Shown: one piece after another, positions 16,053 to 55,555 of the stretch | Layout: every line of letters begins with the position of its first letter | Position numbering within the stretch: position 1 is the first letter of the stretch | From: Mucidula mucida | Taxonomy: Eukaryota; Basidiomycota; Agaricomycetes; Agaricales; Physalacriaceae | Assembly (NCBI GenBank): GCA_015501055.1 | Contig: JADNYV010000063.1 | Coordinates: 62,001-126,000 of the forward strand | Direction: 5' to 3' | Length of the DNA stretch: 64,000 nt | Notes under the pieces: model-generated | Database searches by the model: none | What the model was told of the DNA's origin: nothing | Seen by the model: only the letters and a program-made list of their open reading frames with translations | Translations under genes and position numbers: made by a program

Positions 16053-16450
16053 CATTAATGAATGTACAGTAGCTTGGTAAGTTTATGAGATGGCCGTTAT
16101 GTTGGGTGAGTCCTGCTTAAAGCTTAGCATGATCTACACCTACGAATGTGTTGGTCTCTTCTGAGACGAGAATGAGACAAAGTGAAATGAAGGAACGGAG
16201 CGTGAGAAAGTCTATTAAAACGGCCGGCGGCAGCTACAGTCTCAAGTTGCTTTCCTTCTCCCTTCCAATATGAGCTCCAGTCTGCCTTGTGCCATGCAGA
16301 AACGACGTTTCCAAGTCGCGTCGTCACGTAGCCACCTCACGTGAAGAAGCTATTTAACAGGTGTCTTACCTTTCTTGCGCTAATGACATTTTTACCGCCA
16401 AGCTGAGTGTTGGGTCTCTCGTAATTACACATAACCACGACCCGCGCACG
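16053..16450. other. Spacer before the palindrome
   Basis: About 400 bases without a supported gene. Sequence similarity between the two palindrome arms fades out at its right side. Confidence 0.4.
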
Positions 16451-16683
16451 ACGCGTCTCTTGCCCCATCATGAATGAACATCTTGGTTGCTTCTTGGCGC
16501 CATCGCAGCGGATATATTTGATGTTCTTGTGTTACCCACGATACAAGATCTTTATCGGATCTAGGTATGAATGGCGTGGGGAGTGGGACTGAAAGGAGCA
16601 TCGTGGGATCAGTGTCAACATTGACTCTTTGGGGTAAACAGAGCTTTACATGTGTCAAAATAAGTAGGACAAATGCGCTATAG

Positions 16684-18283
16684 CTACTTCTTCGACTTGA
16701 CCCCACGCACTGGTTTCAAGGCAGAAAGAAGAACGACCTTGGGCTTCAGAAGAACCTGTTCAACGGTACTCCCCGCGTCACCCGACTCGATTCTCCCATT
16801 ATACAGCCCCAGCTCGCATGTGCAGACCACCGTTTCTCTCTGCCTGAACCTCTTCGTACCGTACAAATCCTCCATCAGCTTATCGTCCGCCGGATCACCA
16901 TAGTGCACCATAGCGAGCTTAATATCTTCTGATATCATCTCCTCGCCGATGCTCCGGTCCAGGGAGACGACCAAGTTCGCCATATCAGCTATCCGCCTCC
17001 CGAACGACTCTTGCAAGTCCGCCTTGGGGTTTGCGGCTGACCAGCCCATAAGGGGAAGAACCGGTAGAAGGTTGTCGATGAGAGCCTCCGCTGCGAGACG
17101 CTTGCATTCATCAGCGTGAACGTATTTGGATTGGTGGCGTGTCATGGCGCGCCATCGGCCAGCAACAGAAGGCGAATCTACGTACCATTGACGTTAAATG
17201 GCATGTCTCATTGTTCAAGAAGGGGACTTACTTGATAAACGAATCTGGTCGTAGAGCGACGCGATACTGGCGCTGACCTGATAGTCAACGCCCCATACTT
17301 GAACGATCGCGACACAGGACTGTACGAAAGAGGCCTGAATCCCTGCGGTTATGAGAATTTCGCGCGTGTCTGGGTCTTGGTCGTTCATGAGAAGGTCCAC
17401 CAGGCCTCTGGAGAGCCACTGCGTTGCTCGTTGGACAATGGCCTCGTCAATAGCCGCGCTAGGTTTGGAAAAATCGAGGGTATCAGTCATGAACGCGGCG
17501 GTTTGGAAAATCTCTGAGTTCAACGACTTCGTCGTCTCCTTCAAGTCCTCGATAGAAATCGAATCCGCCTTGGATAGGTACATCTGCGCGTCATTGAGCT
17601 CCTGCGTACGAACGTGCAGGAGGTCTTGGCTACTCTGACGGAGAGCGCGCTCCGCCCAAACGTCCTTTTCAAGCTGCGTTATGTGGGACTGCGATGAATG
17701 TTCAAGATCAGTTAGGTGTTGGCGAAGGGATCTATTGTCGGATTTGTATTTGTCGAGTTTTGAGATAAGGGCGTCATCATCGTAGCCAGCAGGAACGTTG
17801 AAATAGCGACGAAGACGGTCCCAGGCTCCAGAAGAGTGAGAGACCCGAGAGAGCTGCCGTCTGAGCTCCTTTGACTCTCTGCGAAGTTCTTGATTTTCCG
17901 CCGATAGTGTCGCAATACGGTCTCTAGCATGAGAAAGTTCTGCGTCAGCGGCGCGCTAAGAATTCATGAGAAATATTGACAATGATGTGTATCGAACACT
18001 TTACTGGAGTGGCGCTTCTTGAAGCAACATAACCCGGCGTAACTTCATCGTCGTTCAAGAAGTTGAGAGCCCTGGTACCGTCACTGTGCTGGACGGAACC
18101 ACGTTCAGAACATCCGCGACTGCTCTCTCTAGAACCCAGAGAGAGGATCGCAGTGGCAGCCGCGTATGATGGCCGAGAAGGAGTGATTTGCGAGGTGTGG
18201 ACGTTCATTTGAGGAATACCAGGCGGGCGCACAATGTCAGATGTGTGATGGTGGCTAGATACGAAGTCTTGTCTACCGGCCAT
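16684..18283 (-). CDS. Coiled-coil protein A (left copy)
   Basis: Uncharacterised protein of 498 aa in three exons: 18005-18283, 17232-17955 and 16684-17177. Introns have GTAAAG and GTAAGT donors, and the exon lengths sum to an exact reading frame. The start is MAGRQDFVSSHHH. Residues about 93-210 are coiled coil (RIATLSAENQELRRESKELRR). A conserved domain follows: SLNSEIFQTAAFMTD, then WLSRGLVDLLMND. The third exon has SVAGRWRAMTRHQSK and a C-terminal CTCELGLYNGRI...VLLKPKVVLL block. The same blocks in the same order occur in neighbour B (LNADIFQTAA, NVAGKWRSITRKC, CTTDLGI), so A and B are old paralogues. A has no membrane segment. No known family is recognised. It lies downstream of B on the same strand. 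Confidence 0.8.
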
Positions 18284-18819
18284 GACAGGGAGACCGTTTG
18301 ACTGGTTGATTGACGAAGGATGGAGGAGAAAAATGAAGGCGCAGAAGCAGTACTTGAATCGACGGAATGAAAGGCCCTTGGAGTGAGTTACGAGGGTGGC
18401 CTCGTGTGTTGTGGCGGCCGCGCAGGAGATCAATGAGCGCTTAAAGAACAGTGCTACAGATCAATGTTAAGCCAATGTTGATATTGAAGCGGATTGAAGC
18501 GAGTAGTATGTACATGCATACTCCTTGAAAGAAGTTTCGATTCGCGTAAAATACAAACGCCCGTTGAGTAACCGTTAAGCCGGATCGAAGTCAGTGTCAA
18601 GTGTCATTTGACATTTTTGAGTTAATCTCGAGTCAATTCGAGTGAGTCAGAGTGGGGAGAGGCCGGGACGCCCGGTCCGCAAGAGGAGAGATTGATCCGA
18701 GGCCATTTTTCTATTTTCGACGGTCATGGCAGAACGGTGGACTTTGGGTGAAGGTCAACGAAATGCAAAGGCACGGTATTATTACAGAAGAACAATATTC
18801 AGTACTGACAACGCGTTAT

Positions 18820-20123
18820 CTAGACATTCGTTTCGTCGTCAAGTCCCGATCCCCACAATGCTTGCGCTTTAAGCAGTACCTTTCGACCAGAAATCCCATC
18901 TACATGTGCAATCCCTAAATCTGTCGTACAGATAAAACTTTCGGGATCACCTTGGACTTCCAAAAGCTCCTCGCTGCATGGGGAATCAAGGCGTGGGCAT
19001 ACGATGAGGAGGTCAGACGAGATGACCTCCTCTCCGATGAATGTGTTGAGGCGCATTGCCTTCTGCGCCAGCGTCGAAATTGATTCGGAGAATCTCTCAA
19101 CAGTTTCCTTCGCCCTTTGCGTCCCAACTCCTAGACATTCCAGCACTTCGTAAACCGCTCGCGCCATCTGGGTGAAACTATGTTTATGCCAAGTGCCCGA
19201 GTCTTGCGCGTTTGATAGGCATTTTCGCGTAATGGAGCGCCATTTTCCAGCGACATTTAGATCTTCTATATGCCAGTGAGTACAATAGCACAAATTTGTT
19301 TTTCCTGCTCACCGAATTTCTGGACACAGTCATACATGTCAACAACACTCGCTTCTTCGATACCACTGACGGCCTTTGTCCACGATGTGATAGTATACCC
19401 CGCTTGACTGCACAGCGTGGTCTGGATCGCAGTTTGGACCAGGAATTCGAACTCGCTATGGCGTGCCAGAAGTAATTCTGTCAACGCTACCCCAACATAG
19501 CGCGTCAAGGTATCTTTGACGCCCTCGTCCCAGCTCTCCACCACTGCTGGCTTGACGTCGAGAAACTCCGAGATGGTCGCCGCGGTCTGGAAGATATCGG
19601 CGTTCAGTCTCTCAACGAGTTCCTTCACGTCCGCCCCGGAGACCCCGTCCGAAGTCGCTAGAAACGCTTGGGCTGTAGTGAGCTCGCCGGTGCGTTCAGC
19701 GAGCAAACTCTGCACCTCCTTCGCCGCCCTCTGCTCTTTCTCTAGATCCGCCGTGGCGGTGCGAAGCAAAGTCTGGTGATGTTGGAGTTGGCCGCGTGTG
19801 GATGCGAGTTCGGAACGCGTCGTCTTCAACTCGACCTCGCAGTCGGACAGTGCACGCCGGAGTTTGTTGCTTTCTTGGAGACGCGAAGTGGAGAGTTCTT
19901 TCAGAGACTGGATCTCGGCTTTGGACCCGACGCCGGCAGCGCGCAAGTGGGATATGAGGGCGTCTTTGCTTTTTGCGTCGGACCTCATAGCTTCCAGCTC
20001 GTCCTCGCAGTCATGGACGTGTCGCTTGAGTTTTCGGGTTTTGAAGAGAGCGAGGAACGACATGCTAGCGCACGCGGCCAGGATCAAAGGTTTCTTGAAA
20101 TCGGATGAAAGGCGGGGCGTCAT
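18820..20123 (-). CDS. Membrane-anchored coiled-coil protein B (left copy)
   Basis: Uncharacterised protein of 418 aa in two exons (19313-20123 and 18820-19265). The 47-base intron has a GTGAGC donor and TAG acceptor, and the joined length is an exact frame. The start is MTPRLSSDFKK. Residues about 10-27 (KPLILAACASMSFLALF) form a single transmembrane anchor followed by basic residues. A long coiled coil (about 30-160) follows, then the domain shared with A (VERLNADIFQTAATISEFLD) and the exon-2 block NVAGKWRSITRKC to CTTDLGIAHVDG. The likely layout is membrane-tethered with the coiled coil in the cytosol, but topology is inference. It is divergent from the Hsp70-like gene C with 268 bases between start codons, so a shared promoter is likely. 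Confidence 0.8.
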
Positions 20124-20391
20124 GGTAGTTGAATACGAGTTTGGTTTGGTGTTTGCCTGGGTCGAAAGCATCCGCGCACAACACGAGGCCGAATTTATAA
20201 AAGCTTTGTCTTTCATGACTTCGATAAGCGCTCTCATGCATGATCGGCCTTTCTTGTCGCCTCCGTGTTCCCCTTTCAGATGGCACGCCCTTGCGACCAT
20301 TCACACGCGAGACGTACATTCCCATTTGGAAACTCTTTGACTGAAAACCTTTTTTCTTCAGTTGAAGTCAATCGTCAGTCCCAACTCTTCC

Positions 20392-22769
20392 ATGCAACTC
20401 CCCGTCATGTCCGCTCGCAAGCCATACACTGGTGCTTTTCGAAAACTTATCCTTGCATTTGATGTGGGCACCACGTACTCTGGAGTGTCCTTTTCGATTC
20501 TGGACCCAGGACTTGTCCCCGTTATACAAGGTGTAACGAGGTCTGCATCTCTTTCTCTTTCATCGTCAACCACACGACTCACTCGTTTCGTAGATATCCA
20601 GCCCAGCAAAAGGTTGGCGGCGACTCAAAAATCCCCACTATCATCTACTACGATGCCCGAGGAAACGTCAAGGCCGTTGGCGCAGAGGCTGTCGATGAAA
20701 CTTTCTTGGAGAAGGCCGAAGATGAGGGGTACACCAAAGTTGAATGGTCAGTGTCCCCTCTATTCCATCGTATCTCGCTCTCAAGTCAAATGACAGGTTC
20801 AAGCTTCACCTCCGACCTAAGGCCCTCGCCGCCTCGCATATAACAGATGCAGACATTCCCGCGCTTCCTCGGGGCAAGACTGCGCTTGACATCTTCGCCG
20901 ACTTTCTGCGCTACTTGTTTGCCGCTGCCAAAGCATACATCATCGAAACGACGCCTTCTGGTGTATCCTTATGGAACTCTGTCGAGCACAATATCGACTT
21001 TGTCCTGACTCACCCCAACGGCTGGGAAGGTCAGCAACAGGGATTGATGCGACGAGCCGCAGTTGTGGCAGGTCTTATTGAAGATGGAATTGGACAAGAG
21101 CGACTGCAGTTCGTAACCGAAGGAGAAGCTAGCTTACATTTCTGCATCAACAAGAACGTCTTGACTAAGGACCAGATTGTAAGTAGCCAACGATCATTCC
21201 TTTCTGTACTCTTTCTTTGGCTAATGATTAGACAGAACGGGAAAGGCATCATCATCGTCGACGCTGGTGGTGGAACTGTCGACCTCAGCGCATATGCGAA
21301 CAAGACGAACAAGGACAACGCTTTCGAAGAAATCGCACCTACTGAGTGTGAGCAATCTTTCGTCCCCCTGTCGATCTCGACTTACATTCCGTTCAGGTCG
21401 TCTCCAAGGTTCTGTGTTGGTGGGGCGCCGAGCTCGAGCTCACATTGAAGGTCTGTAGCATTTCGTTTCAGAGGCCAAGAACATGACTGCTAATAAGCCT
21501 ACACAGCCAAACTCCGAAACAGTAAATTCGGCAGTATTGAAGACATCAACCATATGGCTAACGTCTTCGACAAGTCTACCAAGCTCAGTTTCCGTACCTC
21601 CAGTGAACCGGCATATATCAGATTCGGTAGCGCGCGCGACAAAGATCTTGCTGTTGACATTCGGAACGGACAGCTCAAGCTTGATGGGTACGTTTCGGCG
21701 TCAACTTCTTACTGCCATCAACTCACTTTCTCGACAGCGAAACTGTGTCCGATTTCTTCAAACCCTCCATCCAAGCGATTATCAAGGCTATCAAGACGCA
21801 GAAAGGATGTTCTAACGTTGATATCACGGCGAGTACATCCCTCTCCTTGATCCATCACTGTGCTTATTGCGTCGCAGACTGTTCTTCTTGTGGGCGGATT
21901 TGCCGCGAGCGATTGGCTCTTCGGCCAGCTCCGAGATGCCTTGTCGCCGTCTCGCATGACTGTCTGTAGACCGGATGGGCATGTGTGAGTAATAATGAGA
22001 ATAAGCGCAAACGGTAGCACTCACTTAGCCGTGCTTTCTAGCAACAAAGCAGTCGCAGATGGTGCTGTCTCTTTCTATCTTGACCACTTCGTTTCTGCTC
22101 GAGTAGCACACTTGACGTACGGGGTTCAAATGGGTATCGCTTTTGATTGCGATGACCCCGAACATCTACATCGATCCCATCAGACGTACTATGATGCGGC
22201 AGGCATACGATGTGTTAGGAATGCTTTTTCGTGTATTCTGGAAAAGGTTTGCCTCTCTCTCTTATTGATACTGAAAAATGCAAATCTGCTTTCCAGGGCA
22301 CCCGAGTCAACGAAGAAACCGAGTTCCGCGAGGCATACTCACGGACCAGTACAAATGTGTCAGCATTGCAGTCGACTTCGATCGATATCATGAGCTATCG
22401 TGGTCCTTCGCCCTATCCGAAATGGTTGGATGTGGCGCCTTGTATGTTGTTTTTGAAACTTGACCTAACGACCGCTTAACCGTACTCAGACTCCTTCTCG
22501 AGCATATGCAGTGTTACCTCGGACACCTCAGGTGTTCCTAGAAGGAGGATCCCACCTCGGACAGCGTATGGATCATATCATTACCACCTGGACTTCGAAG
22601 TTGTCCTACTTTTTGGACTTACCGAGTTGAAGGCGCAGATTGCATGGATTGAGAACGTACGTGCTCTCCATTTGTTTGTTGGCAATTCATTCAGTCTTGT
22701 TGATAGGGAGTAGAAAGACGCAGCCCTGCGACCATCGTTTACGATAGTGTCCTTCAGTCTCGCCAATAG
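20392..22769 (+). CDS. Hsp70-like ATPase, HSPA12 type (left copy C)
   Basis: Actin/Hsp70-fold ATPase. The first exon (ATG at 20392) has the phosphate-1 loop LAFDVGTTYSGVSFSIL. Later exons have THPNGWEGQQQGLMRRAAVVAG, the phosphate-2 motif IIIVDAGGGTVDLSAY, and the adenosine-site motif VLLVGGFAASDWLF. This order and wording fit the HSPA12-like branch rather than canonical DnaK-type Hsp70, and no EEVD tail is present. Splice sites are canonical throughout. One exon, ending in SVLVGRRARAHIE, is joined through a GTGAGC donor in PTEC. The last intron has a GTACGT donor, and the gene ends VLQSRQ, TAG at 22769. The gene looks intact. It ends 34 bases from convergent D2. Clients are unknown; HSPA12-like proteins are amplified in many agaricomycetes. 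Confidence 0.85.
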
Positions 22770-22803
22770 CTATGTTCCATTACGCCTAACAATCATGTAC
22801 GTT

Positions 22804-24538
22804 TCAACAATGTTGGATACACCTAAAGACGCGCGCGGTGCCCTCGAAAATATGGCCTGTTTTCTTTCTCTTTGATGATCGTCCTTCAGAAACGTCGTTT
22901 TCGACTGCCTGCCCAGGCTCTTGTGAAACTTTTAAATGAATTCTTCGTGTAATAATTCCGTCCAATACCGCCGGGAGTTGCAACTGGATTGTTTTCCGCA
23001 ACCCGTCCATATCCTTCGTGTTTGCCAGAGCATACTCAAGCGAGCGTTGCGTGATGGTGAGATCATATACATCCTCCTTGTTGCGTTTCTCCTGCAGAGT
23101 GGTTCTATCGTGGATATTGTTTTGAAGCGCTAAGCAACGGGCGTCAGAGAACGTGGGGGATCAGTACGATGGGTTGGCATGTACCTTCTTGGGACGCCTT
23201 CACGCCGATCAATGCCTTTTCAAGTTCGCGTATTTGACCTGGAACGGCATCAGCAGGATGCCTTGAGCACAACGTGGCGTCAAATACCAGATTTTGCGGA
23301 TGATTCATCATCGCAAGCTACAACCCTTTGTCTGAGCCCTCTGTTGTCGACCTTCTCGCGCACCAGTTGTACTTTTAGTGATGTCAATTGCTCGTCCTGG
23401 TCTGTGTATATGTGATCAATTTGCGCTTCCGCCAGTAAACAGAACAGCGGCGATTACATACCGCGAAATGTGTTCATCCTTTCGTTAGCATCTACAACAC
23501 CGCTGATCAATATATGGTCCGTCATTAAGGCTCATTGTCCTTACCTTCGACGGATCTCTCTAAGATAGCGATTTGGTTTGTGCTTTCGTGAAGTCCTTGA
23601 AGACGAACGGTAGTAAGTATGGCGTCTGTCAAAAAGCAAGAGAAGCACGCAACGGGATTCTGTATCACGAAGCTTCTCTTGGAGATCTTGAAGGTTTCAG
23701 GATGAGGAAGACGAAAACCAGGTTGGAACCAGGATGAACTGCGCACCGGATAATTGGCTCAAGACGGCACGATTGGCGGCGGTTGGACTTCTGCTCATTA
23801 AAGGTCGGGATACTGATCACTGAGGTCAACAGGGACATCTGATAAGCTTGATTTCGTACGCACCTGTCTTGTCCTCTGAGTCAATGCGCGAATAGACCTT
23901 TTCTTTCCAGCGAAGCGTGCCTACATCGGCGCCCTCCTGCGATGTTGACCTATCACAGTGACTCTGCGACGAGCCTTCAATAGGCTTCTTAGCTCGCCCC
24001 AAGGACTCTTCGGAGTCGCTATCCGGAGGCTGAGATAGCTCGGAAGATACCGCTGAGCCCACTCTCGAGGGTGCCGTGGAAGAACTTGGCGTTTTGAGAG
24101 GGACAAAATAGGTTGTCAGCAAATCTGTATGTACGCGCTCTGACTCCGAGATTGTTGACGACGGGGGTTTAGGGAGCAGAGACGCAAGGACGTCGAACTT
24201 TTGACGTTTGAGTTCTGGCCAGGCGGTCGCGATCCTCTCAAACAGCTCGTCGTCCGACAAACTGCATCGACTTTCCGATGCCAGGCAGACGCTGGACCGA
24301 CACGCCACGTCTTCAAGGGTCCGCTCGCACTTCTTACGTGCATGTTCGCAGGTTTTGCACCGCTTCAGGCTGCTGAGTTATCGGATGTGGTATTGAACAA
24401 GGACGAACCGACCTTGTCTCTGTTTCTAGAAACCCACTTCTTGTTATCGCGCTTCAATCGAAGCTTTTTGTTTTCTCTTTGCATGATGAATTCCAGAGAC
24501 TTGCCGACATATTCTGCTGGTATGATAGGTTCAGACAT
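22804..24538 (-). CDS. Zn2Cys6-like coiled-coil protein D2 (left copy)
   Basis: D-family member. The start is the ATG ending at 24538 (MSEPIIPAEYVGKSLEF). After an intron comes the cysteine cluster LKRCKTCEHARKKCERT, spaced C-x2-C-x6-C-x8-C-x4-C-x6-C. Its first half is strikingly like the basic half of classic Zn2Cys6 regulators. DDELFERIATAWPELKRQKFD follows, the segment shared by all D proteins after the cluster. A Ser/Pro/Thr-rich linker leads into short coiled-coil exons and a lysine/arginine-rich end (SSKRKKTGH). The phase of the first intron is not certain: a GTGGGT donor earlier in the exon gives a continuous frame, while the more obvious GTCGGT donor does not. It is divergent from F-box gene E, 358 bases between starts, and convergent with C. 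Confidence 0.65.
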
Positions 24539-24814
24539 GATCGCAGGAAGAGAGATTGGGGACTTGGTGGGAACTTGCCCAATCCGTATGTGCATACCAA
24601 TAAGGAGGCTTCTCTCCCTTGCTTGATTTCAATGTCACTGGAGTACGAGGCCTCCAAGCGATAAACAGGACACCTGCGCATACATGAACGACAAGTATGT
24701 AAAAGGTATGTTTGACTCCGATTCTACGCATCCTTGTGAGGCCTTCGATTCGACAATTACTGGTGAAAAAACGATTTGAAATCTGGATGACTCTGAAACA
24801 TCTGACTGCAGTCG

Positions 24815-24829
24815 TGCGATCACCTGACC
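24815..24829 (+). promoter_or_regulatory. F-box promoter motif (TGCGATCACCTGACC)
   Basis: Sits in the 358-base divergent promoter between D2 and E, 67 bases before the E start codon. Identical to 11383-11397 before E4 and to its mirror copy before E'. Likely a regulator site for the F-box gene or for the divergent pair. Confidence 0.45.
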
Positions 24830-24896
24830 AGTGAAAAGGGTCAAACACGCGATTGCTTTTTTCCCTCTTGTACCATCACCCTCCCTAGTCAATACA

Positions 24897-27344
24897 ATGG
24901 CTACCCGTCGATCGCAAAGACTTGCCGTCCAAAAGGCCTCCTCTGACGAAAATACCAGTGTACAGCCTAGCAAACCTCAAGCCCACAAAGTCGTCGTCAA
25001 AAAACAAGTCGCGAAGAAACAACCTGAGACCACAAATCAAGAACCGGACAATGTTGAGGACGCGCTTCCTCCAAACCAGCGCCGCCCGAAGACGAAGACT
25101 GCTGTAGCAGCCGCGGCTACGACCGATAGCTGCCCGGCACCGAAGCGTCGTGGCAGGAAAGGTATATTGGAGCAGATAACAGATACTCCGCTTGACGTCT
25201 TGTTTGAGGTGACGACCTATCACTGCAAATCTTTCCCCATATCCTTACCCTCTTGCAGATATTTTCCTACTTGGAGCCGTTTGATCTCTTGCGCTTAAGT
25301 CGCACAACCAAGGACCTTCGAGGACTACTCATGAGCAAATCGTCTGCCTTCGTTTGGGAGAATGCTAGAGCAGGAATGGAGGGCCTACCTCCTATCCTTG
25401 ATGGTTTAAACGACCCTCAGTACGCCAACCTCTTGTTCGACGGGCACTGCCACGTACGTGTCACTCTATATGAACGCGAAACCTATTCAAACCAGTCTTA
25501 TAGAACTGCGGCGCGATGGGGGCAAAGCATGTGCAACTCGAAATACGTATGCGGCTATGCAAGGCCTGTCTGGACGAAGGAGAAATGTATGTATCCCTTA
25601 TTTTGACGATCCGTAAAGCGTGCTCATTCCAGATAGTATGATGTCCTGGACGGCTGTTCACGACGCTCTGACTGATATCGTCGTCGCTCGCGAATTGGTG
25701 ACCCTGGTACCAAAATACATCTTCTCCACCTCGTCTGGAGGCAGAACTTATTACTATGACCGGGCCTCTCTAGTTCAAATTAGCAAGGAATACGCGGCGA
25801 TCAAGAACCAGGCATTACGTGCGAACTTTTCCAGGGAAAAATACCAAGAATACGCTCCTCTTGCACGTGTAGGTGTCACGTTGTTGACCCGTTCGTTCAC
25901 TGACGGTTATCGCTCAGGAATGCGAACCACATCAGGCATGGCTGAAGTCCAGGAAGAACAATCGCACTGAAGAACTTGCTTTGCTGCGTCGCGAAAGACT
26001 CTTTCGGTCAGTTTCAATGACGTCCATCATTTTAAGACGAGCTGAGGTTGCTTTAGTGTGGTCGAACGCCTACGTGCGGATGGATGGGAGGAAGAAGTCA
26101 AGAGCAACTTGGTCCTGAAGACACTTGGAGAGCACAAGCTCGTCAATCAACCGAAGCCATTGACTGACCGCAGTACGTCTTTCACAAGTACATTATCTCG
26201 GCTCGACCGCTTACCAGAATCAGTGTGGCAGAATATGGAATCCAGTGTAGTTGAAGTGATGGAACAGCTTCGTGCCGAGCTTCTCGCAGAGAGGATACGC
26301 ACCGCAGTCTCGCGACGCATCGTTCTTGTGAAGGAGCTCTGCCAACCTCTCATCGACAAAATGCCAGAACTTCCGGCCACGCCGCCTGTTACCATGCTCC
26401 CCATGTTCAACGAGTTTGCAAAACTTATCGCAGAGACTCCTCATGAGGAGGAACTCACAGCAGATCATTTTGCCGCAGCGCTCGACTACCTTCCCACGAG
26501 GTGCGCAAGCTGGAGGCATGTAGAAGAGGGCAAAATGAAGGCGCTTCTCTTGAAGGCCGGTAGGAGTGATGATCTCTCCTTGGTGGCGAACGCGTTCACC
26601 TGCTCCTCTTGTACCCATTTCCCGCCTGTTCTCCATCACCCGTACTTCGCCTCTCACCGTTGTTTCTTTGGCTCCTCGCAAGTTGGTTCTGAGCAAGTAA
26701 AGCCAGTGTGGTATCCCAAATTAGCCGTGGCCATAGACCCGTTCGGACAGAAGGTCTGTAACACAATCATCAAGATGTCCGGTCTTGACCCGACAAGTGC
26801 TACTGCTTCGGACATGGACTCTGCAGATGTATTCTTTACCTGCGAGGAATGCTTCAATACGCAGTATGCCCCCCCTGGAAACCGACATTTGCGACTTATG
26901 CGGTGGCGTGCAGCTATGGTGGGTATCTCAATTCCAAATGATTTGACGTACGATACTGAAGACAGCTCAGAATCATCATCGGAGACATATGAACGATTTG
27001 AAACGTGTAACTGACGAAGATGTCCTTGTCCGGGCTCGCCTCAAAGAGGAGACTGAACTGGCTTCTCGCATGAAGAGCAGTTATGACCGCGAGACGTCTG
27101 TTTGTATTTTGTGCTCGACGGTCCAAGCATCACCTGAGGCTCGCACCGAACATCTGAAGGATATGTACGTGCATTTGATTTTCGTTCGTGCAATTTCTGA
27201 TACCAAGCCTCGTTTAGCCATGGGATTACTAACGATGATGCGAGTTACTTCAAGCTCAGTCAAAAGTCGAAGTCGTTGCTCGAGAAATGCGTCTTTGTCA
27301 AGGAACGGTTTGTTCCAACAGCCAACGTCGGTACTGCGGAATAG
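24897..27344 (+). CDS. F-box protein E (left copy, appears intact)
   Basis: Putative SCF substrate adaptor. The start is the ATG at 24897 (MATRRSQRLAVQK), with an upstream in-frame extension lacking an ATG. A basic disordered N-terminus (APKRRGRKG) leads to the F-box: ITDTPLDVLFE, intron, IFSYLEPFDLLRLSRTTKDLRGLL. Downstream are MRLCKACLDE, a long helical region, a Cys/His-rich segment (CSSCTHFPPVLHHPYFASHRCF, later CEEC) and a C-terminal CILCSTVQASPEAR...H finger-like motif. The last exon ends NVGTAE, TAG at 27344. About nine exons with short introns. No lesion was found, unlike the right copy. It is divergent from D2 and convergent with D1 (223 bases between ends). Confidence 0.8.
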
Positions 27345-27567
27345 GAATTTCCCACATGTCTAGGTCTAGATATCAGCGAGGCGTGGTCCTCGCGTTCTTT
27401 AAAACTTTTTGCTTATGCAGATGCTCGGCCCCGGTGGCCCGTTACAATTCACGACACCTTACGACTGCTGACTTATCAATTGAACGTAGGATACAATAGG
27501 ACGAAACAAGATGTCTACACTGAACGAGCTCAATACTACTACTCTTCCACGAAACCACATGGAGTTA

Positions 27568-41416: not shown

Positions 41417-41641
41417 TAACTCCATGTGGTTTCGTGGAAGAGTAGTAGTATTGAGCTCGTTCAGTGTAGACATCTTGTTTCGTCCTATTGTATCCTACGT
41501 TCAATTGATAAGTCAGCAGTCGTAAGGTGTCGTTAATCGTAACGGGCCACCGGGGCCGAGCATCTGCATAAGTAAATGGGTTTCACAAATGTGACTCGTG
41601 AGGACCACGCCTCGCCGATATCGAGACTTGTAGGAACTTTC

Positions 41642-44081
41642 TTATTCCGCAGTACCGACGTTGGCTGTTGGAACAAACCGTTCCTTGACAAAGACGCATT
41701 TCTCGAGCAACGACTTCGACTTTTGACTGAGCTTGAAGTAATTCGCATCATCGTTAGTGATTCCATGGCTAAAGAAGGCTTGGTATCAGATATTGCGCAA
41801 ACAGAAATCGAATGCACGTACACATCCTTCAAATGTTCGGTGCGCGCTTCAGGTGATGCTTGGACCGTCGAGCACAAAATACAAACAGACGTCTCGCGGT
41901 CATAACTGCTCTTCATGCGAGAAGCTAGTTCAGTCTCCTCGTTGAGGCGAGCCCGGACAAGAACATCTTCGTCAGTTACACGTTTCAAATCGTTCATATG
42001 TCTCCGATGATGATTCTGAGCTGTCTTCAGTATCGTACGTCAAATCATTTGGAATTGAGATACCCACCATAGCTGCACGCCACCGCATAAGTCGCAAATG
42101 CCGGTTTCCAGGGGGGGCATACTGCGTCTTGAAGCATTCCTCACAGGTAAAGAATACATCTGCAGAGTCCATGTCCGAAGCAGTAGCACTTTTCGGGTCA
42201 AGACCGGACATCTTGATGATTGTGTTACAGACCTTCTGTCCGAACTGGTCTATGGCCACAGCTAATTTGGGGTACCACACTGGCTTTACTTGCTCAGAAC
42301 CAACTTGCGAGGAGCCAAAGAAACAACGGTGAGAGGCGAAGTACGGGTGATGGAGAACAGACGGGAAATGGGTACAAGAGGAGCAGGTGAACGCGTTCGC
42401 CACCAAGGAGAGATCATCACTCCTACCGGCCTTCAAGAGAAGCGCCTTCATTTTGCCCTCTTCTACATGCCTCCAGCGTGCGCACCTCGTGGGAAGGTAG
42501 TCGAGAGCTGCGGCAAAATGATCTGCTGTGAGTTCCTCCTCATGAGGAGTCTCTGCGATAAGTTTTGCAAACTCGTTGAAAATGGGGAGCATCGTAACAG
42601 GAGGCGTCGCCGGGAGTTCCGGCATTTTGTCGATGAGAGGTTGGCAGAGCTCCTTCACAAGAACGATGCGTCGCGAGACCGCGGTGCGTATCCTCTCTGC
42701 GAGAAGCTCGGCACGAAGCTGTTCCATCACTTCAACTACACTGGATTCCATATTCTGCCACACTGATTCTGGTAAGCGGTCGAGCCGAGATAAAGTATTT
42801 ATGAAAGACGTACTGCGGTCAGTCAATGGCTTCGGTTGATTAACGAGCTTGTGCTCTCCGAGTGTCTTCAGGACCAAGTTGCTCTTGACTTCTTCCTCCC
42901 ATCCATCCGCACGTAGGCGTTCGACGACACTAAAGGAACCTTAGCTCGTATTTGGATGATGGATGTCCATGAAACTGACCTAAAGAGTCTTTCGCGACGC
43001 AGCAAAGCAAGTTCTTCAGTGCGATTGTTCTTCCTGGACGTCAGCCACGCCTGATGTGGTTCGCATTCCTGAGCGATACCCGTCAGTGAACGAACGATTC
43101 AACAAGGCGACGCGTACACGTGCAAGAAGAGCGTGTTCTTGGTTTTTTTCCCTCGAAAAGTTCGCACGTAATGCCTGAGTTTTGATCGCTGCGTATTCCT
43201 TGCTAGTTTGAACTAGAGAGGCCCGGTCATAATAATAAGTTCTGCCTCCAGATGAGGTGGAGAAGATGTATTTTGGTACCATGGTGACCAATTCGCGAGC
43301 GACGACGCTATCAGTCAGAGCGTCGTGAACAGCCGTCCAGGACATCATACTATCTGGAATGAGCACGCTTTACGGATCGTCAAAATAAGGGATACATACA
43401 TTTCTCCTTCGTCCAGACAGGCCTTGCATAGCCGCATACGTATTTCGAATTGCACATGCTTTGCCCCCATCGCGCCGCAGTTCTATAAGACTGGTTTGAA
43501 TAGGTTTCGCGTTCATATAGAGTGACACGTACGTGGCAGTGCCCGTCGAACAAGAGGTTGGCGTACTGAGGGTCGTTTAAACCATCAAGGTAGGCCCTCC
43601 ATTCCTGCTCTAGCATTCTCCCAAACGAAGGCAGACGATTTGCTCATGAGTAGTCCTCGAAGGTCCTTGGTTGTGCGACTTAAGCGCAAGAGATCAAACG
43701 GCTCCAAGTAGGAAAATATCTGCAAGAGGGTAAGGATATGGGGAAAGATTTGCAGTGATAGGTCGTCACCTCAAACAAGACGTCAAGCGGAGTATCTGTT
43801 ATCTGCTCCAATATACCTTTCCTGCCACGACGCTTCGGTGCCGGGCAGCTATCGGTCGTAGCCGCGGCTGCTACAGGAGTCTTCGTCTTCGGGCGGCGCT
43901 GGTTTGGAGGAAGCGCGTCCTTAACATTGTCCGGTTCTTGATTTGTGGTCTCAGGTTGTTTCTTCGCGCCTAGTTTTTTGACGACGACTTTGTGGGCTTG
44001 AGGTTTGCTAGGCTGTACACTGGTATTTTCGTCAGAGGAGGCCTTTTGGACGGCAAGTCTTTGCGATCGACGGGTAGCCAT
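41642..44081 (-). pseudogene. F-box protein E' (right copy, frameshifted)
   Basis: Mirror of E and nearly identical: the start is the ATG ending at 44081 (MATRRSQRLAVQK), the same exons, and the stop at 41642-41644. In the second exon, just after the F-box (SAFVWENARAGMEGLP in E), 8 bases present in E are missing. GGGCCTACCTCCTATCC... reads GGGCCTACCTTGATGG (reverse complement of about 43583-43602). This shifts the frame right after the F-box and before the cysteine-rich domains. Any product would be a short F-box-only protein. All other exons and splice sites remain intact, so the lesion is recent. Confidence 0.75.
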
Positions 44082-44148
44082 TGTATTGACTAGGGATGGT
44101 GATGGTACAAGAGGAAAAAAAGCAGTCGCGTGTTTGACCCTTTTCACT

Positions 44149-44163
44149 GGTCAGGTGATCGCA
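44149..44163 (-). promoter_or_regulatory. F-box promoter motif, mirror copy
   Basis: Reverse complement of TGCGATCACCTGACC, at the same distance from the E' start codon as in E, within the D2'/E' divergent promoter. Confidence 0.45.
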
Positions 44164-44439
44164 CGACTGCAGTCAGATGTTTCAGAGTCATCCAGATTTC
44201 AAATCGTTTTTTCACCAGCAATTGTCGAATCGAAGGCCTCACAAGGATGCGTAGAATCGGAGTCAAACATACCTTTTACATACTTGTCGTTCATGTATGC
44301 GCAGGTGTCCTGTTTATCGCTTGGAGGCCTCGTACTCCAGTGACATTGAAATCAAGCAAGGGAGAGAAGCCTCCTTATTGGTATGCACATACGGATTGGG
44401 CAAGTTCCCACCAAGTCCCCAATCTCTCTTCCTGCGATC

Positions 44440-46138
44440 ATGTCTGAACCTATCATACCAGCAGAATATGTCGGCAAGTCTCTGGAATTCATCATGCAAA
44501 GAGAAAACAAAAAGCTTCGATTGAAGCGCGATATCAAGAAGTGGGTTTCTAGAAACAGAGACAAGGTCGGTTCTTACTTGTTCAATACCACATCCGATAA
44601 CTTAGCAGCCTGAAGCGGTGCAAAACCTGCGAACATGCACGTAAGAAGTGCGAGCGGACCCTTGAAGACGTGGCGTGTCGGTCCAGCGTCTGCCTGGCAG
44701 CGGAAAGTCGATGCAGTTTGTCGGACGACGAGCTGTTTGAGAGGATCGCGACCGCCTGGCCAGAACTCAAACGTCAAAAGTTCGACGTCCTTGCGTCTCT
44801 GCTCCCTAAACCCCCGTCGTCAACAATCTCGGAGTCAGAGCGCGTACATACAGATTTGCTGACAACCTATTTTGTCCCTCTCAAAACGCCAAGTTCTTCC
44901 ACGGCACCCTCAAGAGCGGGCTCAGCGGTATCTTCCGAGCTATCTCAGCCTCCGGATAGCGACTCCGAAGAGTCCTTGGGGCGAGCTAAGAAGCCTATTG
45001 AAGGCTCGTCGCAGAGTCACTGTGATAGGTCAACATCGCAGGAGGGCGCCGATGTAGGCACGCTTCGCTGGAAAGAAAAGGTCTATTCGCGCATTGACTC
45101 AGAGGACAAGACAGGTGCGTACGAAATCAAGCTTATCAGATGTCCCTGTTGACCTCAGTGATCAGTATCCCGACCTTTAATGAGCAGAAGTCCAACCGCC
45201 GCCAATCGTGCCGTCTTGAGCCAATTATCCGGTGCGCAGTTCATCCTGGTTCCAACCTGGTTTTCGTCTTCCTCATCCTGAACCCTTCAAGATCTCCAAG
45301 AGAAGCTTCGTGATACAGAATCCCGTTGCGTGCTTCTCTTGCTTTTTGACAGACGCCGTACTTACTACCGTTCGTCTTCAAGGACTTCACGAAAGCACAA
45401 ACCAAATCGCTATCTTAGAGAGATCTGTCGAAGGTAAGGACAATGAGCCTTAATGACGGACCATATATTGATCAGCGGTGTTGTAGATGCTAACGAAAGG
45501 ATGAACACATTTCGCGGTATGTAATCGCCGCTGTTCTGTTTACTGGCGGAAGCGCAAATTGATCACATATACACAGACCAGGACGAGCAATTGACATCAC
45601 TAAAAGTACAACTGGTGCGCGAGAAGGTCGACAACAGAGGGCTCAGACAAAGGGTTGTAGCTTGCGATGATGAATCATCCGCAAAATCTGGTATTTGACG
45701 CCACGTTGTGCTCAAGGCATCCTGCTGATGCCGTTCCAGGTCAAATACGCGAACTTGAAAAGGCATTGATCGGCGTGAAGGCGTCCCAAGAAGGTACATG
45801 CCAACCCATCGTACTGATCCCCCACGTTCTCTGACGCCCGTTGCTTAGCGCTTCAAAACGATATCCACGATGGAATCGCTCAGCAGGAGAAAAGAAACAA
45901 GGAGGATATATATGATCTCACCATTACGCAACGCTCGCTTGAGTATGCTCTGGTAAACGCGAAGGATATGGACGGGTTGCGGAAAACAATTCAGTTGCAA
46001 CTTCCGGTACTGGACGGAATTATTACACGAAGAACCCCTTTGAAAGTCTCACAAGAGACTGGACAGGCAGTCGGAAACGACGAGGCCGAAGGAAGGTCAT
46101 CGAAGAGACAGAAAACAGGCCATATTTTTCGATTTTGA
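44440..46138 (+). CDS. Zn2Cys6-like coiled-coil protein D2' (right copy)
   Basis: Mirror of D2 and almost identical through most of its length. The start is MSEPIIPAEYVGKSLEF. The cluster RCKTCEHARKKC has spacing C-x2-C-x6-C-x8-C-x4-C-x6-C, followed by DDELFERIATAWPEL. The C-terminus differs from the left copy: after SSKRQKTGHIF the right copy ends in two residues and TGA (46138), whereas the left reads on for about 13 residues. The first-intron phase has the same uncertainty as D2. It is divergent from E' and convergent with C' (66 bases between ends). Confidence 0.65.
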
Positions 46139-46204
46139 GAGTACCGCACGTCTTTAGGTCACAGGTGTTGTGAAATACATGATTATTAGCAAAATTGAAC
46201 ATAG

Positions 46205-48575
46205 CTATTGTCGAGATTGGAGGACACTATCGTACACGATAGACGCAGGACTACGCTTCTCGATTCCCTGAAATCAAGGTAGGTCAGGACCAGTAGGATG
46301 AAACCAAACCGGTGACATACATTTTCAGTCCAAGCTATCTGAGCCTTCAATTCGGTCAACCCAAACAGTAGTACTATGTCGAAGCTCAGCCCATACCAGT
46401 GCGACCCATGGGCACTGCGAGGGGGCTGCCTTCTCTTCGGCACAGCCATCGTATCGGCGGTGACGGTGCACAAAGTCACAAATGAATCTGGTTCTATTTA
46501 GTCTACATCAATCATGGGATTGAACAACAACTTACGAGGAGCGATATCTAGCCAGATTGGATGAGGATAAGCTCCGCGGTAGCTCAGTATCTCAGCCGAT
46601 ATGCCATTCAATCCAGTAGCATTCGCACTGGTTTGAACGTATGAAGATCTGAACTCTGTCTCCTCATTGATACGGGTTCCCTGTTAACAATCAGCACTCG
46701 GTTCGCAAGTAGACTTCAAGACCTCGTCAGACCTTCTTGAGAATGGATGAAAATGCTCCAGGGACGTATCTGAGACCAGTAGCATCATAGTACGAGGTGT
46801 GATATCGTGCCCGGTGTTCCAGATCATCTGCGTCGCACTCGACATCTATTTCCACGCCGTAGGTTAAATTGGCAACCCTTGTCGTGACAAAATGATCGAG
46901 GTAGAAGGATATGGCACCATCTGCCACCGCTTTATTTCTGAAAACAAGGTGAACCAATGACAGCGGAATAAACTGAAGGGTGCCCACACATGCCCGTCGG
47001 GTCTGCAAACAGATATGAGAGACTGGGCCAAGACATCTCGGAGCCGGCCGAAGAGCCAGTCACTGGCGGCAAATCCACCCACGAGAAGAACGGTCTGTGG
47101 TAAGTGAGCATAGTGAGGAATTGACATAAGGTGCATACTAACAGAGATCTCGACAGAAGAGGATTCTCTCTGCGTTTTGATAGCCTCCAGAATCGCTTGG
47201 ATAGATGGTTCGAAGAAGCCAGATACAGTCTCGCTGTTCAAGGAATGAGCTGATGGCGATCGGACGTCGGTGTTGTAACGTACCCATCAAGCTTAAGCTG
47301 CCCGTTCCTAATATCGACAGTAAGATCCTTGTCGCGTGCACTTCCGAATCTAATATACGCCGGTTCGTTGGAGGTACGGAAACTGAGCTTCGTGGACTTG
47401 TCAAATACGCTCGCCATATGATTGACGTCTTCGACAGCGCCGAATTTGGTGTTCCGGAGTTTGGCTGTGTGGCTAGTCAGTGGTACCGTTTATAATTCAT
47501 GGAACGAAGTGCTACAACAGACCTTCAATGTGAGCTCGAGCTCGGCGACCTACTAACACAGAACCTTGGAGACGACCTGAGCGGAATTTCAGCTGAGATA
47601 GACAGCGGGATGAGAAATTGCTCACACTCAGTAGGTGCGATTTCTTCGAAAGCGTTGTCCGTGTTCGTCTTGTTCGCATATGCGCTGAGGTCGACAGTTC
47701 CACCACCGGCGTCGACGATGATGATACCTTTCCCGTTCTGTTTGATCATTAGCCGTAGAACAAGAATAGGAACAAATAAATCTTACAATCTGGTCCTTGG
47801 TCAAGACGTTCTTATTGATGCAGAAATGTAAACTGGCTTCTCCTTCGGTTACGAACTGCAGTCGATCTTGTCCAATTCCATCTTTGATAAGACCTGCCAC
47901 AACCGCAGCTCGTCGCATCAATCCCTGCTGCTGGCCTTCCCAGCCGTTGGGGTGAGTCAGAACAAAGTCGATATTGTGCTCGACAGAGCTCAATAAGGAT
48001 GCACCAGAAGGCATCGTCTCGGTAATGTATAATTTAACAGCGGCAAACAAGTAGCGCAAAACGTCGGCGAAGATGTCAAGCACAGTCTTGCCCTGAGGGA
48101 GCGCCGGAATATCTGCATCTGTTATGTGCGAGGCGGCGAGGGCCTTGGGTCGGAGGTGAAGCTTGAACCTGTCTTATTTGAGAGCGATACAATGAAATGC
48201 TAGAGGTGACACTGACCATTCGACTTTGGTGTACCCTTCGTCTTCGGCCTTCTCCAGGAAAGCCTCGTCGATAGCCTCTGCACCGACGGCCTTGACGTCT
48301 CCTTGGGCATCGTAGTAGATGATAGTGGGGATCTTTGAGTCGCCGCCAACCTTTTGCTGGGCTGCATATCTACGAAACGAATGACTAAGTCGTGTGGTTG
48401 ACGACGAAAGAAAAAGTGAATCATACCTCGTTACGCCTTGGATGACGGGGACAAGTCCTGGGTCCAGTATAGCAAAGGACACTCCGGAGTAGGTGGTACC
48501 TACATCAAATGCCACGACAAGCTTGCGAAAAGCGCCAGTGTATGGCTTGCGAGCGGGCAGGACGGGGAGTTGCAT
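46205..48575 (-). CDS. Hsp70-like ATPase, HSPA12 type (right copy C')
   Basis: Mirror of C. The start is the ATG ending at 48575 (MQLPVLPARKPYTGAF). The same motifs are present: VAFDVGTTYSGVSFAIL, THPNGWEGQQQGLMRRA, IIIVDAGGGTVDLSAY, VLLVGGFAASDWLF. The C-terminus is KRSPASIVYDSVLQSRQ. Splice sites match C in position and phase. Both copies look intact. They differ far more than neighbouring D2/E sequences do: 13 of the last 63 coding bases differ. Together with two open frames this suggests that both proteins are kept under selection. Divergent from B', 227 bases between starts. Confidence 0.85.
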
Positions 48576-48802
48576 AGGAAGAATTGGGACTGACAATGGA
48601 CTTCGACTGAAGAAGAAGGTTTTCAGTCAAAGGGTTTCCAAATGGAAATGTGCGCCTCGTGTGTAAAAGGTTCCAAGGGCGTGAAATCTAAAACGGAACA
48701 CACAAATGCGAAAGACAAAGCTTTTAGCGGCCTCGTGTTGTACGCGGATGCTTTGTAGCATGCGGCAAAGACAAACTTCAGACTCGCGCTTCTCCATAAA
48801 CC

Positions 48803-50106
48803 ATGACGCCCCGCCTTTCATCCGATTTGAAGAAGCCTTTGATCCTGGCCATGTGCGCTAGCATGTCGTTCCTCGCTCTCTTCAAAACCCAAAAACTCAA
48901 GCGACACGTCGATGACTGTGAGGACGAGCTGGAAGCTATGAGGTCCGATGCAAAGAGAAAGGACGCCCTCATATCCCAGTTGCGCGCTGCCGGCGTCGCG
49001 TCCAAAGCCGAGATCCAGTCCCTGAAAGAACTCTCCACTTCGCGTCTCAAAGAAAGCAACAAACTCCGGCGCGCACTGTCCGACTGCGAGGTCGAGTTGA
49101 AGAAGACGCGTTCCGAACTCGCATCCACACGCGGCCAACTCCAACATCACCAGACTTGGCTTCGCACCGCCACGGCGGATCTAGAGAAAGAGCAGAGGGC
49201 GGCGAAGGAGGTGCAGAGTTTGCTCGCCGAACGCACCGGCGAGCTCACTACGGCCCAAGCGTTTCTAGCGACTTCGGACGGGGTCTCCGGGGCGGACGTG
49301 AAGGACCTCGTTGAGAGACTGAACGCCGATATCTTCCAGACCGCAGCGGCCATCTCGGAGTTTCTCGACGTCAAGCCAGCAGCGGTGGAGAGCTGGGACG
49401 AGGGCGTCAAAGATACCTTGACGCGCTATGTTGGGGTAGCGTTGACAGAATTACTTCTGGCGCGCCATAGCGAGTTCGAATTCCTGGTCCAAACTGCGAT
49501 CCAGACCATGCTGTGCAGTCAAGCGGGGTATACTATCACATCGTGGACAAAGGCCGTCAGTGGTATCGAAGAAGCGAGTATTGTTGACATGTATGACTGT
49601 GTCCAGAAATTCGGTGAGCAGGAAAAACAAATTTCTGCTATTGTACTCACTGGCATATAGAAGATCTAAAGGTCGCTGGCAAATGGCGTTCCATTACGAG
49701 AAAATGCCTATCAAAAGCGCAAGACCTGGATACTTGGCATAGACATAGTTTTACGCAGATGGCTCGAGCGGTTTACGAAGTGCTAGAATGTTTAGGAGTT
49801 GGGACGCAAAGGGCGAAGGAAACCGTCGAACGATTCTCGGACTCGATTTCGACGCTGGCGCAGCAGGCAATGCGCCTCAACACATTCATCGGCGAGGAGG
49901 TCATCTCTTCTGACCTCCTCATCGTATGCCCCCGTCTTGATTCCCCATGCAGCGAGGAGCTTTTGGATATCCAAGGTGATCCCGAAAGTTTTATCTGTAC
50001 GACAGATTTAGGGATTACACATGTAGATGGGATTGCTGGTCGAAAGGTACTGCTTAAAGCGCAAGCATTGTGGGGAACGGGACTTGACGACGAAACGAAT
50101 GTCTAG
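48803..50106 (+). CDS. Membrane-anchored coiled-coil protein B' (right copy)
   Basis: Mirror of B with identical exon lengths (811 and 446 bases; intron 49614-49660). The N-terminal anchor KPLILAMCASMSFLALF, coiled coil, LNADIFQTAAAISEFLD and VAGKWRSITRKC blocks are all preserved, and the end is DETNV at 50106. Substitutions are scattered and no lesion was found, so the copy is probably functional. Confidence 0.8.
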
Positions 50107-50692
50107 ATAACGCATTGTCAGTACTGAATAGTTATTTTCTGTAATGATACCGTGTCCTTACATCTTGTTGACCTTCACTCGAAGTCCACCGTTCTGCCAT
50201 GACCGTCGAAAATAGAAAAAAGGGCCTCGGATCAATCTGTTCTCCTCCGGACGATTTGCGGACCGGGCGTTCCGGCTTCTCCTGCTTTTTGCCACTCACT
50301 CAAAGTTACTCAAGATTGACACTGACTTCAACCCAGCTTAACGGCTACTGCACGGGCGGTGTTTGTATTTAACGCGGATCGAATCTTCTTTCAAGGAGTT
50401 TGAATATACTACTCGCTTCAATCCGCTTCAATATCGACACTGGCTTAACATTACTCTTCAGCACAATTCTTTAAGCGCTCACTGATGTCCTGCGCAGCCG
50501 CCAGATCACACGAGACCACCCTCGTTCCAAGGGCCTTTCATTTCGTCGATCATAGTACTGCTTCCGCGCCTTCATTGTTCTTTTTCATGCTTCGAGTTAG
50601 TCAGCCAGTCTCACCGTTTACGACTGCAGATAAGACATCGTATCTAGCCACCGTCACGGATTGGCATTGCGCGCCCGCCTGGTATTCCGCCA

Positions 50693-52228
50693 ATGAACGT
50701 CTACAACTCGCCTGCCACTCCGACTTTTCGGTCATCATACGCGGCTGCCACTGCGGCCTCCTCTCCGCTCTGCCTGGATTGTAATGAGAGCAGTCGCGGA
50801 TATCCTGAATGTAGTTCTGTCCCGCACGGCGACAGTACCAGGGTTCTCAATTTTATGAACGACGATGAAGTTACACCGGGTTATGTCGCTTCAGGAAGCG
50901 CGACTCAAGTAAAGTGTTCGATACACACCATGGTCAATATGTCTCATGCTTTCTTAGCGCGCCGGCGACGCAGAGCTTGTCCATGCCAGGGACCGTATTG
51001 CGACACTATCGGCGGAAAATCAAGAACTTCGCAGAGAGTCAAAGGAGCTCAGACGGCAGCTCTCTCGGGTCTCTCACTCTTCTGGAGCCTGGGACCGTCT
51101 TCGTCGCTATTTCAACGTTCCTGCTGGCTACGATGATGACGCCCTTATCTCAAAACTCGACAAATACAAATCCGACAATAGATCCCTTCGCCAACACCTA
51201 ACTGATCTTGAACATTCATCGCAGTCCCACATAGCGCAGCTTGAAAAGGACGTTTGGGCGGAGCGCGCTCTCCGTCAGAGCAGCCAGGACCTCTTGCACG
51301 TTCGTACGCAGGAGCTCAACGACGCGCAAATGTACCTATCCAAAACGGATTCGATTTCTATCGAGGACTTGAAGGAGACGACGAAGTCGTTGAACTCAGA
51401 GATTTTCCAAACCGCCGCGTTCATGACTGATACCCTCGATTTTTCCAAACCTAGCGCGGCTATTGACGAGGCCATTGTCCAACGAGCAACGCAGTGGCTC
51501 TCCAGAGGCCTGGTGGACCTTCTCATGAACGACCAAGACCCAGACACGCGCGAAATTCTCATAACCGCAGGGATTCAGGCCTCTTTCGTACAGTCCTGTG
51601 TCGCGATCGTTCAAGTATGGGGCGTTGACTATCAGGTCAGCGCCAGTATCGCGTCGCTCTACGACCAGATTCGTTTATCAAGTAAGCCCCTTCTTCAACA
51701 ATAAGAAATGCCATTGAACGTTAATGGTACATAGATTCGCCTTCTATTGCTGGCCGATGGCGCGCCATGACACGCCACCAATCCAAATACGTTCACGCCG
51801 ATAAATGCAAGCGTCTCGCAGCGGAGGCTCTCATCGACAACCTTCTAACGGTTCTTCCCCTTATGGGCTGGTCAGCCGCCAACCCAAAGGCGGACTTGCA
51901 AGAGTTGTTCGGGAGGCGGATAACTGATATGGCGAACTTGGTCGTCTCGCTGGACCGGAGCATGGGCGAGGACATGATATCAGAAGATATTAAGCTGGCT
52001 ATGGTACACTATGGCGATCCGGCGGACGATAATCTGATGGAGGATTTGTACGGTACGAAGAGGGTGAGGAAGAGAGATACGGTGGTCTGCACATGCGAGC
52101 TTGGGTTGTATAACGGGAGAATCGAGTCGGGTGACGCGGGGAGTACCGTTGGACAGGTTCTTCTGAAGCCCAAGGTTGTTCTTCTGTCTGCCTTGAAGCC
52201 AGTGCGTGGGGTCAGGTCGAAGAAGTAG
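50693..52228 (+). CDS. Coiled-coil protein A' (right copy, shortened N-terminus)
   Basis: Mirror of A with exon 2 and exon 3 of identical lengths (50958-51681, 51735-52228). The start codon used by A (MAGRQDFV) is ACG here, and a one-base loss follows in the same stretch, so the first 25 residues of A are not available. The next in-frame ATG, at 50693 (MNVYNSPATPTF), matches an internal methionine of A and gives a 477-residue protein with coiled coil, SLNSEIFQTAAF and AGRWRAMTRHQ blocks intact. The lost part lies in the disordered N-terminus, so function may be kept. Confidence 0.7.
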
Positions 52229-52511
52229 CTATAGCGCTTTCCTCCTACTTATTTTGACACGTGTAGTAAAGCTTTGTCAAATTGTTTACCCCGAAGAGTC
52301 CATGTTGGTGACGTTGATCAAGAACCCCCATGACTCTCCTTTCAGTCCAAGTACCCACATCATTCATACCTAGATCAGATAGAGATCTCGCATCGCGTGT
52401 AACAGAAGAACACCAGACATGGGATGCTGGGATACCGAAGGGAGCTTCTTATTTCCCGGAAGCTTTATATCATGATGGATCCCTGTGATCTCATTGGAGT
52501 CCCTTCATAGG

Positions 52512-55530: not shown

Positions 55531-55555
55531 ACGCCATTGTATACATAGATATAAT

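Follow-up and report, generated by a model that had tools for sequence, protein, structure and literature searches.

We describe here a large gene-bearing palindrome in the genome of Mucidula mucida. The window, meaning the whole stretch of 64,000 bases that was analysed, corresponds to bases 62001-126000 of contig C638 (JADNYV010000063.1; 186,060 bases) in an assembly of 59.9 Mb and 1047 contigs. A palindrome with arms of about 14 kb around a hinge of 7.1 kb had been proposed in an initial annotation of this DNA and was confirmed by self-BLAST. The outer arm block (16519-28262 against 52415-40738, inverted) is 89.2% identical over 11,861 columns, and the inner block (28261-30585 against 40106-37728, inverted) is 86.3% identical over 2,410 columns. 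Local alignment extended the outer end to 16502/52433, with identity falling there, and placed the inner edge at 30585/37728, right after a near-identical stretch. Chance is excluded as the source of the match because of the length and identity of the arms. Self-BLAST and gene models together showed long inverted arms with genes in mirror order, and the coordinate pairs given earlier for the ends of gene A (16684/52228) and the starts of gene G (29958/38363) are the same in the gene models. All seven mirrored genes that had been announced are present in order, but they are not seven intact pairs, as the right copy of F carries an insertion and the left copy of G is truncated. Substitutions, indels, an insertion and unequal inner ends, said to distinguish the arms, were all seen. 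The genes were modelled with a self-trained spliced predictor, which is crude and gave poor models of F and of the left copy of G; its model of the left copy of C extended upstream into gene B and was trimmed manually. The arms (L and R), hinge and genes are as follows, positions being those of the window.

16519..30585, plus strand: left arm (L), from self-BLAST, with the inner edge from local alignment
37728..52415, minus strand: right arm (R), inverted relative to L, from self-BLAST; collinear in a second contig, C511, to 51714 except for an insertion at 40105-40739
30586..37727, no strand: hinge of 7.1 kb; C511 match 97%, with about 1.08 kb extra in C511
16684..18208, minus strand: gene A left, 464-amino-acid model, coiled coil
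50693..52228, plus strand: gene A right, 477-amino-acid model
18820..20123, minus strand: gene B left, model of 418 amino acids from the start shared with the right copy (predictor's start, 20300)
48803..50106, plus strand: gene B right, 418-amino-acid model
20392..22769, plus strand: gene C left, HSP70/HSPA12-like, P0003, CPB85DRAFT_840353, 602 amino acids; ends set by eye from a three-frame translation
46205..48575, minus strand: gene C right, P0001, CPB85DRAFT_1254346, 604 amino acids, gene model with a diverged C-terminal half
22804..24595, minus strand: gene D left, gene model, Cys-rich and coiled-coil family (our own naming)
44383..46138, plus strand: gene D right, gene model
24684..27344, plus strand: gene E left, F-box-like (E=0.0018, 18.4 bits, under the curated cut-off of 24.3)
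41642..44294, minus strand: gene E right, F-box-like (E=5e-05, 23.4 bits, just under the cut-off of 24.3)
27675..30064, minus strand: gene F left, poor model with 11 introns
38642..41416, plus strand: gene F right, model entering the insertion at 40105, with a further piece predicted at 40806-41416
29958..30747, plus strand: gene G left, truncated at the arm end (30585), from gene model and local alignment
36040..38363, minus strand: gene G right, 593-amino-acid model running from the arm into the hinge

Genes A and B encode coiled-coil proteins and are distant paralogues, 30% identical to each other. The right copy of B is 100% identical to annotated protein P0121 (CPB85DRAFT_1254347). Gene C is considered HSP70/HSPA12-like by its relatives, which are named Heat shock 70 kDa protein 12A or actin-like ATPase; PF00012 was found in two of the 120 listed relatives, and the right copy itself gave no Pfam match (E up to 0.1) and no match in a PDB sequence search. 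The model of this right copy is 91% identical over its length to CPB85DRAFT_1254346, the differences lying at exon edges that were modelled otherwise. D, F and G, with 32-35% identity over 57-97 residues, apparently form one Cys-rich coiled-coil family. The annotated Mucidula protein for gene E, P0123, carries PF00646/PF12937. A Pfam scan of ten raw open reading frames returned no matches because the genes hold many short introns. Between L and R, the ratio of nonsynonymous to synonymous substitution rates (dN/dS) was 0.46 for A, 0.28 for B, 0.22 for C, 0.40 for D, 0.21 for E, 0.42 for F and 0.95 for G, and most copies look to be under purifying selection. Most of gene D also recurs elsewhere, as a 1440-base stretch (23171-24610, 44368-45807) found at C98:30986-32425 with 99.7% identity to L and 99.2% to R between unrelated flanks. 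Inspection by eye revealed no terminal repeats or target-site duplication around the C98 copy, which appears to be a recent ectopic copy.

The locus was also seen in a second, independently assembled contig. C511 (24,457 bases) is collinear with window 27713-51714, and only there, carrying the inner 2.9 kb of the left arm, the same hinge and the right arm up to 51714. Its identity to the window is 96.8% in 27713-35949, 95.1% in 35944-40106 and 98.3% in 40738-51714. Both of its ends fall near stretches where the arms are nearly identical, which may be the reason why the contig stops there. Over 13117 ungapped sites, L and R differ at 1188 (9.1%), R and the C511 right arm at 208 (1.6%), and L and the C511 right arm at 1139. 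Over 2758 sites of the inner left arm, 59 differences separate the left alleles and 81 the right alleles, compared with 261 between L and R and 251 between the two arms of C511. Presumed allelic contig pairs elsewhere in the assembly are 97.4-99.8% identical (C478/C267, 99.8% in one stretch and 97.4% in another; C638/C691, 99.0%). Arm divergence is thus far above allele divergence, and the arms are therefore not alleles of each other. Both contigs that span the centre of the palindrome contain it, which is therefore most likely present in both haplotypes of a strain that is heterozygous and probably dikaryotic. Contigs C575, C226 and C411 are 99.6-99.8% identical among themselves over the 3 kb compared, which is one copy more than two haplotypes would give.

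Identity between the arms is a mosaic, ranging from 68% to 99% across the tracts named here; it does not stay above 99% along the arm, as it does in Y palindromes, but is 86-89% overall. Three tracts are listed here:

21450..22760, plus strand: diverged island in gene C, with 414 of 1277 ungapped L-R sites differing (arm alignment)
23119..25677, plus strand: near-identical tract, with 19 of 2545 ungapped sites differing between the arms (arm alignment)
26600..27460, plus strand: allele-specific tract (alignment of the arms with C511)

The longest mismatch-free run between L and R spans 433 sites; when as many mismatches were placed at random 1000 times, no run exceeded 152. Introns share the mosaic, their L-R differences being 14.0% for A (129 sites), 2.1% for B (47), 29.7% for C (492), 1.0% for D (406), 6.3% for E (444), 13.9% for F (725) and 5.1% for G (178), and protein constraint alone is therefore no sufficient explanation. 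In the 26600-27460 tract (854 sites), the C511 right arm shows fewer differences from the left arm (11) than from its own allele (46); L and R differ there at 44 sites. Among the 208 differences between the right alleles, the C511 base agrees with L in 123 and the C638 base in 74, the remaining 11 matching neither. An excess of L-matching differences is expected by itself, one allele usually retaining the older state. The labels of these differences are, in addition, clustered along the arm (72 runs, compared with a mean of 93.3 after shuffling), only 3 of 10000 shuffles giving a value as low. From these two contigs of one strain we infer gene conversion from arm to arm, part of which would still be polymorphic; tracts of near identity that extend over introns, together with the conflict between allele and arm at 26600-27460, are what such conversion would leave.

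Two explanations would dispense with a converted palindrome. A head-to-head joining of two haplotypes of one locus by the assembler can hardly be credited, in agreement with the earlier opinion that an artefact is unlikely. The assembly does contain redundant near-identical contigs, there are several near-identical tracts in the arms, and one contig alone includes the outer left arm. Nevertheless, C638 and C511 agree in passing from the inner part of the left arm across one and the same hinge to the right arm, the inner ends are unequal, and only one side has a full-length gene G. A misjoining of haplotypes is made very unlikely by the divergence of the arms at 9.1% of sites, compared with 1.6% between the right-arm alleles; the inner left alleles are likewise close (59 of 2758). 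The near-identical tracts could alternatively be the product of strong selection instead of conversion, as dN/dS is below 0.5 in six of the seven pairs. This too is improbable: introns and synonymous sites are also nearly identical in 23119-25677, and in 26600-27460 one allele is more similar to the other arm than to its own allele.

The diverged island divides gene C into halves that appear to have different histories. In columns 1-330 of the protein alignment, L and R are 91.0% identical, and their identities to the Hymenopellis protein are 77.3% and 74.4%; in columns 455-620, L is 81.6% identical to Hymenopellis, compared with 61.8% for R and 62.0% between L and R. The Hymenopellis gene C outgroup looks mis-spliced in places, so that its distance in the N-terminal half is overestimated. 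Trees of 45 proteins with midpoint rooting, built from the first 45 of the 120 listed that are shorter than 700 amino acids, are in conflict: L and R group together in the N-terminal tree (support 0.605, weak), and L groups with Hymenopellis in the C-terminal tree (support 0.942), with R outside. The C-terminal half of the right copy is probably older than the Mucidula/Hymenopellis split. Either the pair is that old and was homogenised elsewhere, or this half arrived later. The other genes compared behave differently from that half, the arms being 93.5% identical to each other for B and 81.3% and 81.5% identical to Hymenopellis (81.3% being that of the left copy with protein P0122), and 91.5% compared with 68.4% and 63.5% for E, where differing models lower the figures. 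In Hymenopellis radicata, B, C and E are each represented by a single cluster member, in all three cases on a contig of 180,114 bases that we take to be one and the same; this suggests an unduplicated block in that species, where it is known from annotated proteins alone. Genes similar to B and C lie near each other also at C94:420061-423225 and on C226, C575 and C411, and the B-C pair looks like an old module.

The conflict within gene C can be accommodated in several ways. A duplication younger than the split, after which the right copy had its 3' half exchanged through ectopic conversion or introgression from a diverged relative, has about an even chance of being correct. It fits the grouping of L with R by the N-terminal part (weakly) and not by the C-terminal part, and HSP70-like paralogues that exist on C226/C575/C411 and on C94; against it, no donor closer to the right half than the left copy was found in the assembly among the best candidates scored. 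It is possible, although doubtful, that the inverted pair predates the split, that conversion homogenised all but the 3' half of gene C, and that Hymenopellis lost one arm. The identities in columns 455-620, the well-supported sister position of L and Hymenopellis and the same lack of a closer match among the scored candidates would then find their explanation, but only one such island is seen in the arms, the arms are more alike than either is to Hymenopellis for B and E, and a loss in Hymenopellis is required. Rather unlikely is a palindrome outside the known mating-type contigs that formed before the split and evolves in concert by conversion, in which the C-terminal half of the HSP70-like gene was shielded from homogenisation and persisted as two ancient lineages, perhaps by diversifying selection.

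Taken together, the locus is very probably an inverted segmental duplication of a seven-gene block, the arms of which later exchanged sequence by patchy conversion. A block of 14 kb would have been copied in inverted orientation next to the original. The probable source is the right arm with the hinge, as it is only there that gene G has its full length, the left copy stopping at the inner breakpoint. The copy may have been placed at a distance of 7 kb from the start, or else a tighter palindrome may have lost part of one arm around its centre at a later time. After the duplication, gene conversion would have acted on some patches between the arms while others diverged further. The present effect is likely to be additional or diversified copies of narrowly distributed genes, including the F-box-like and HSP70-like ones, because most copies look to be under purifying selection. 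Several points weigh against this account. The structure is known from assembled contigs alone, the left arm is present in one contig only over its outer 11.2 kb (16519-27712), and C511 is read as the other haplotype from its identity and collinearity. The copy direction is deduced from one truncated gene, and the diverged half of gene C lies in the very arm taken as the source and does not fit a single duplication date. Gene C dN/dS averages two halves with different histories, and all gene models come from the crude self-trained predictor. Most differences between the right alleles match L simply through retention of the older state, and uneven mutation rates could contribute to their clustering, although such rates would leave unexplained why an arm is more similar to the opposite arm than to its own allele.

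Other features of the locus are listed below.

30597..30978, plus strand: fragments just inside the left inner end, a piece of F followed by a piece of D (self-BLAST)
40105..40739, no strand: insertion in the right copy of F with 39-bp perfect terminal inverted repeats and TA at each end (self-BLAST, C511 comparison)
54736..56874, plus strand: one arm of a second, decayed inverted duplication, whose partner lies beyond the window at C638:134654-136726 (87-88%)

The F piece (30608-30722) is 84% identical to 28415-28534, and the D piece (30755-30978) is 70% identical to 24062-24332. The 40105-40739 insertion is absent from C511 and from the left arm; it has a 100% copy in C564 and two matching pieces in C446. 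A further insertion difference lies in the hinge, where C511 has about 1.08 kb extra (C511:8235-9316, at window 35944-35949) that is absent from C638 and has imperfect terminal repeats with TA at each end. A transposon origin of the arms was considered: no transposase family was found in the six frames of the left arm (Pfam, E up to 1), and no dedicated search for target-site duplications at the outer ends was made; the same frame-wise scan covered three plus frames of the hinge together with 30701-35700 of one minus frame. In the hinge, a dispersed repeat at about 35396-35933 has matches on at least 32 other contigs, and the gene model at 32759-34783 contains repeated GRGRP/GPGRP motifs, which we take to be AT-hook-like; its frame also gave a weak PWWP match that stays below the cut-off (E=0.13). 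After the partner of the second duplication, a 188-base fragment of gene B is present at C638:136881-137068 (89.9% to L, 88.3% to R), so that the left arm, the right arm and this fragment in the right flank alternate in orientation. The left flank contains relatives of E (models 8644-10933, 35%, and 11519-14025, 39%) and of G (model 5514-8266, 33%). The locus lies in a duplication-rich gene cluster and has been rearranged repeatedly. The one junction pair examined bears no mechanism signature. At the edge of the window, bases 1-2287 are 100% identical to C279:38600-40886.

A link to sex-determining regions, suggested by the likeness to palindromes of sex chromosomes, was not borne out. The check covered the 186-kb contig only, on which there was no match to the STE3 receptor family (PF02076; 0 of the 27 in the genome) or to Homeobox_KN (PF05920; 0 of 4), although diverged pheromone or homeobox genes could escape such a search; a mating-type locus was rejected as a candidate on this basis. 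The proneness to hairpin deletion that had been ascribed to the palindrome is overstated for double-stranded DNA, the risk being lower but not nil. In yeast, according to the available part of PMC10164571, a long spacer and arm divergence both reduce the instability of inverted repeats: rearrangements were 31 times rarer with a spacer of 1.5 kb, and 47 times rarer with one of 20 kb, than with a spacer of 12 bp. Repeats separated by as much as 30 kb may still interact on occasion. The same source describes widely spaced, divergent repeats as potent in long single-stranded DNA, where spacing hardly matters. With a hinge of 7 kb and arms diverged by 9-14%, the survival of the palindrome is not surprising.

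The structure is an inverted segmental duplication and so of an already known kind; the available portions of the literature on fungal palindromes and inverted segmental duplications contained no description of this locus. The genome paper, in the part available, counts Oudemansiella mucida CBS 558.79 and Hymenopellis radicata as new genomes and gives Illumina and PacBio as used across its set of species (PMC8480192). Inverted duplications and triplications arise by foldback, template switching or origin-dependent amplification, as stated in the accessible parts of PMC10622511 and PMC4689423. The alternating orientation of the two arms and the third gene B fragment resembles such products, but the hinge is 7 kb long and the junction pair lacks a signature, and no specific mechanism is assigned. 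Human Y palindromes also have large gene-bearing inverted arms, a spacer and gene conversion between the arms; their arms exceed 99.9% identity (PMC3723533, from the part available), whereas identity here is a mosaic and no tie to mating type was found. In Caenorhabditis, homologous gene pairs form long inverted repeats (PMC1803023, available excerpt), in contrast to the block of seven genes described here. Among fungi, the pheromone-gene repeats of the Cryptococcus mating-type locus are usually inverted around a gene pair and are thought to be kept alike by intra-allelic gene conversion. They measure about 500 bp, with larger amplicons up to 5,000 bp, and lie inside the mating-type locus (PMC526376, as far as the available text goes), whereas the present arms are 14 kb long on a contig without mating-type matches. 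The palindrome offers a fungal case, from a contig on which mating-type matches are lacking, where two versions of the same inverted repeat are present in a single assembly, so that conversion can be compared directly with allelic divergence, and the separate half-gene provides a concrete test of whether conversion was resisted locally or foreign sequence arrived later.

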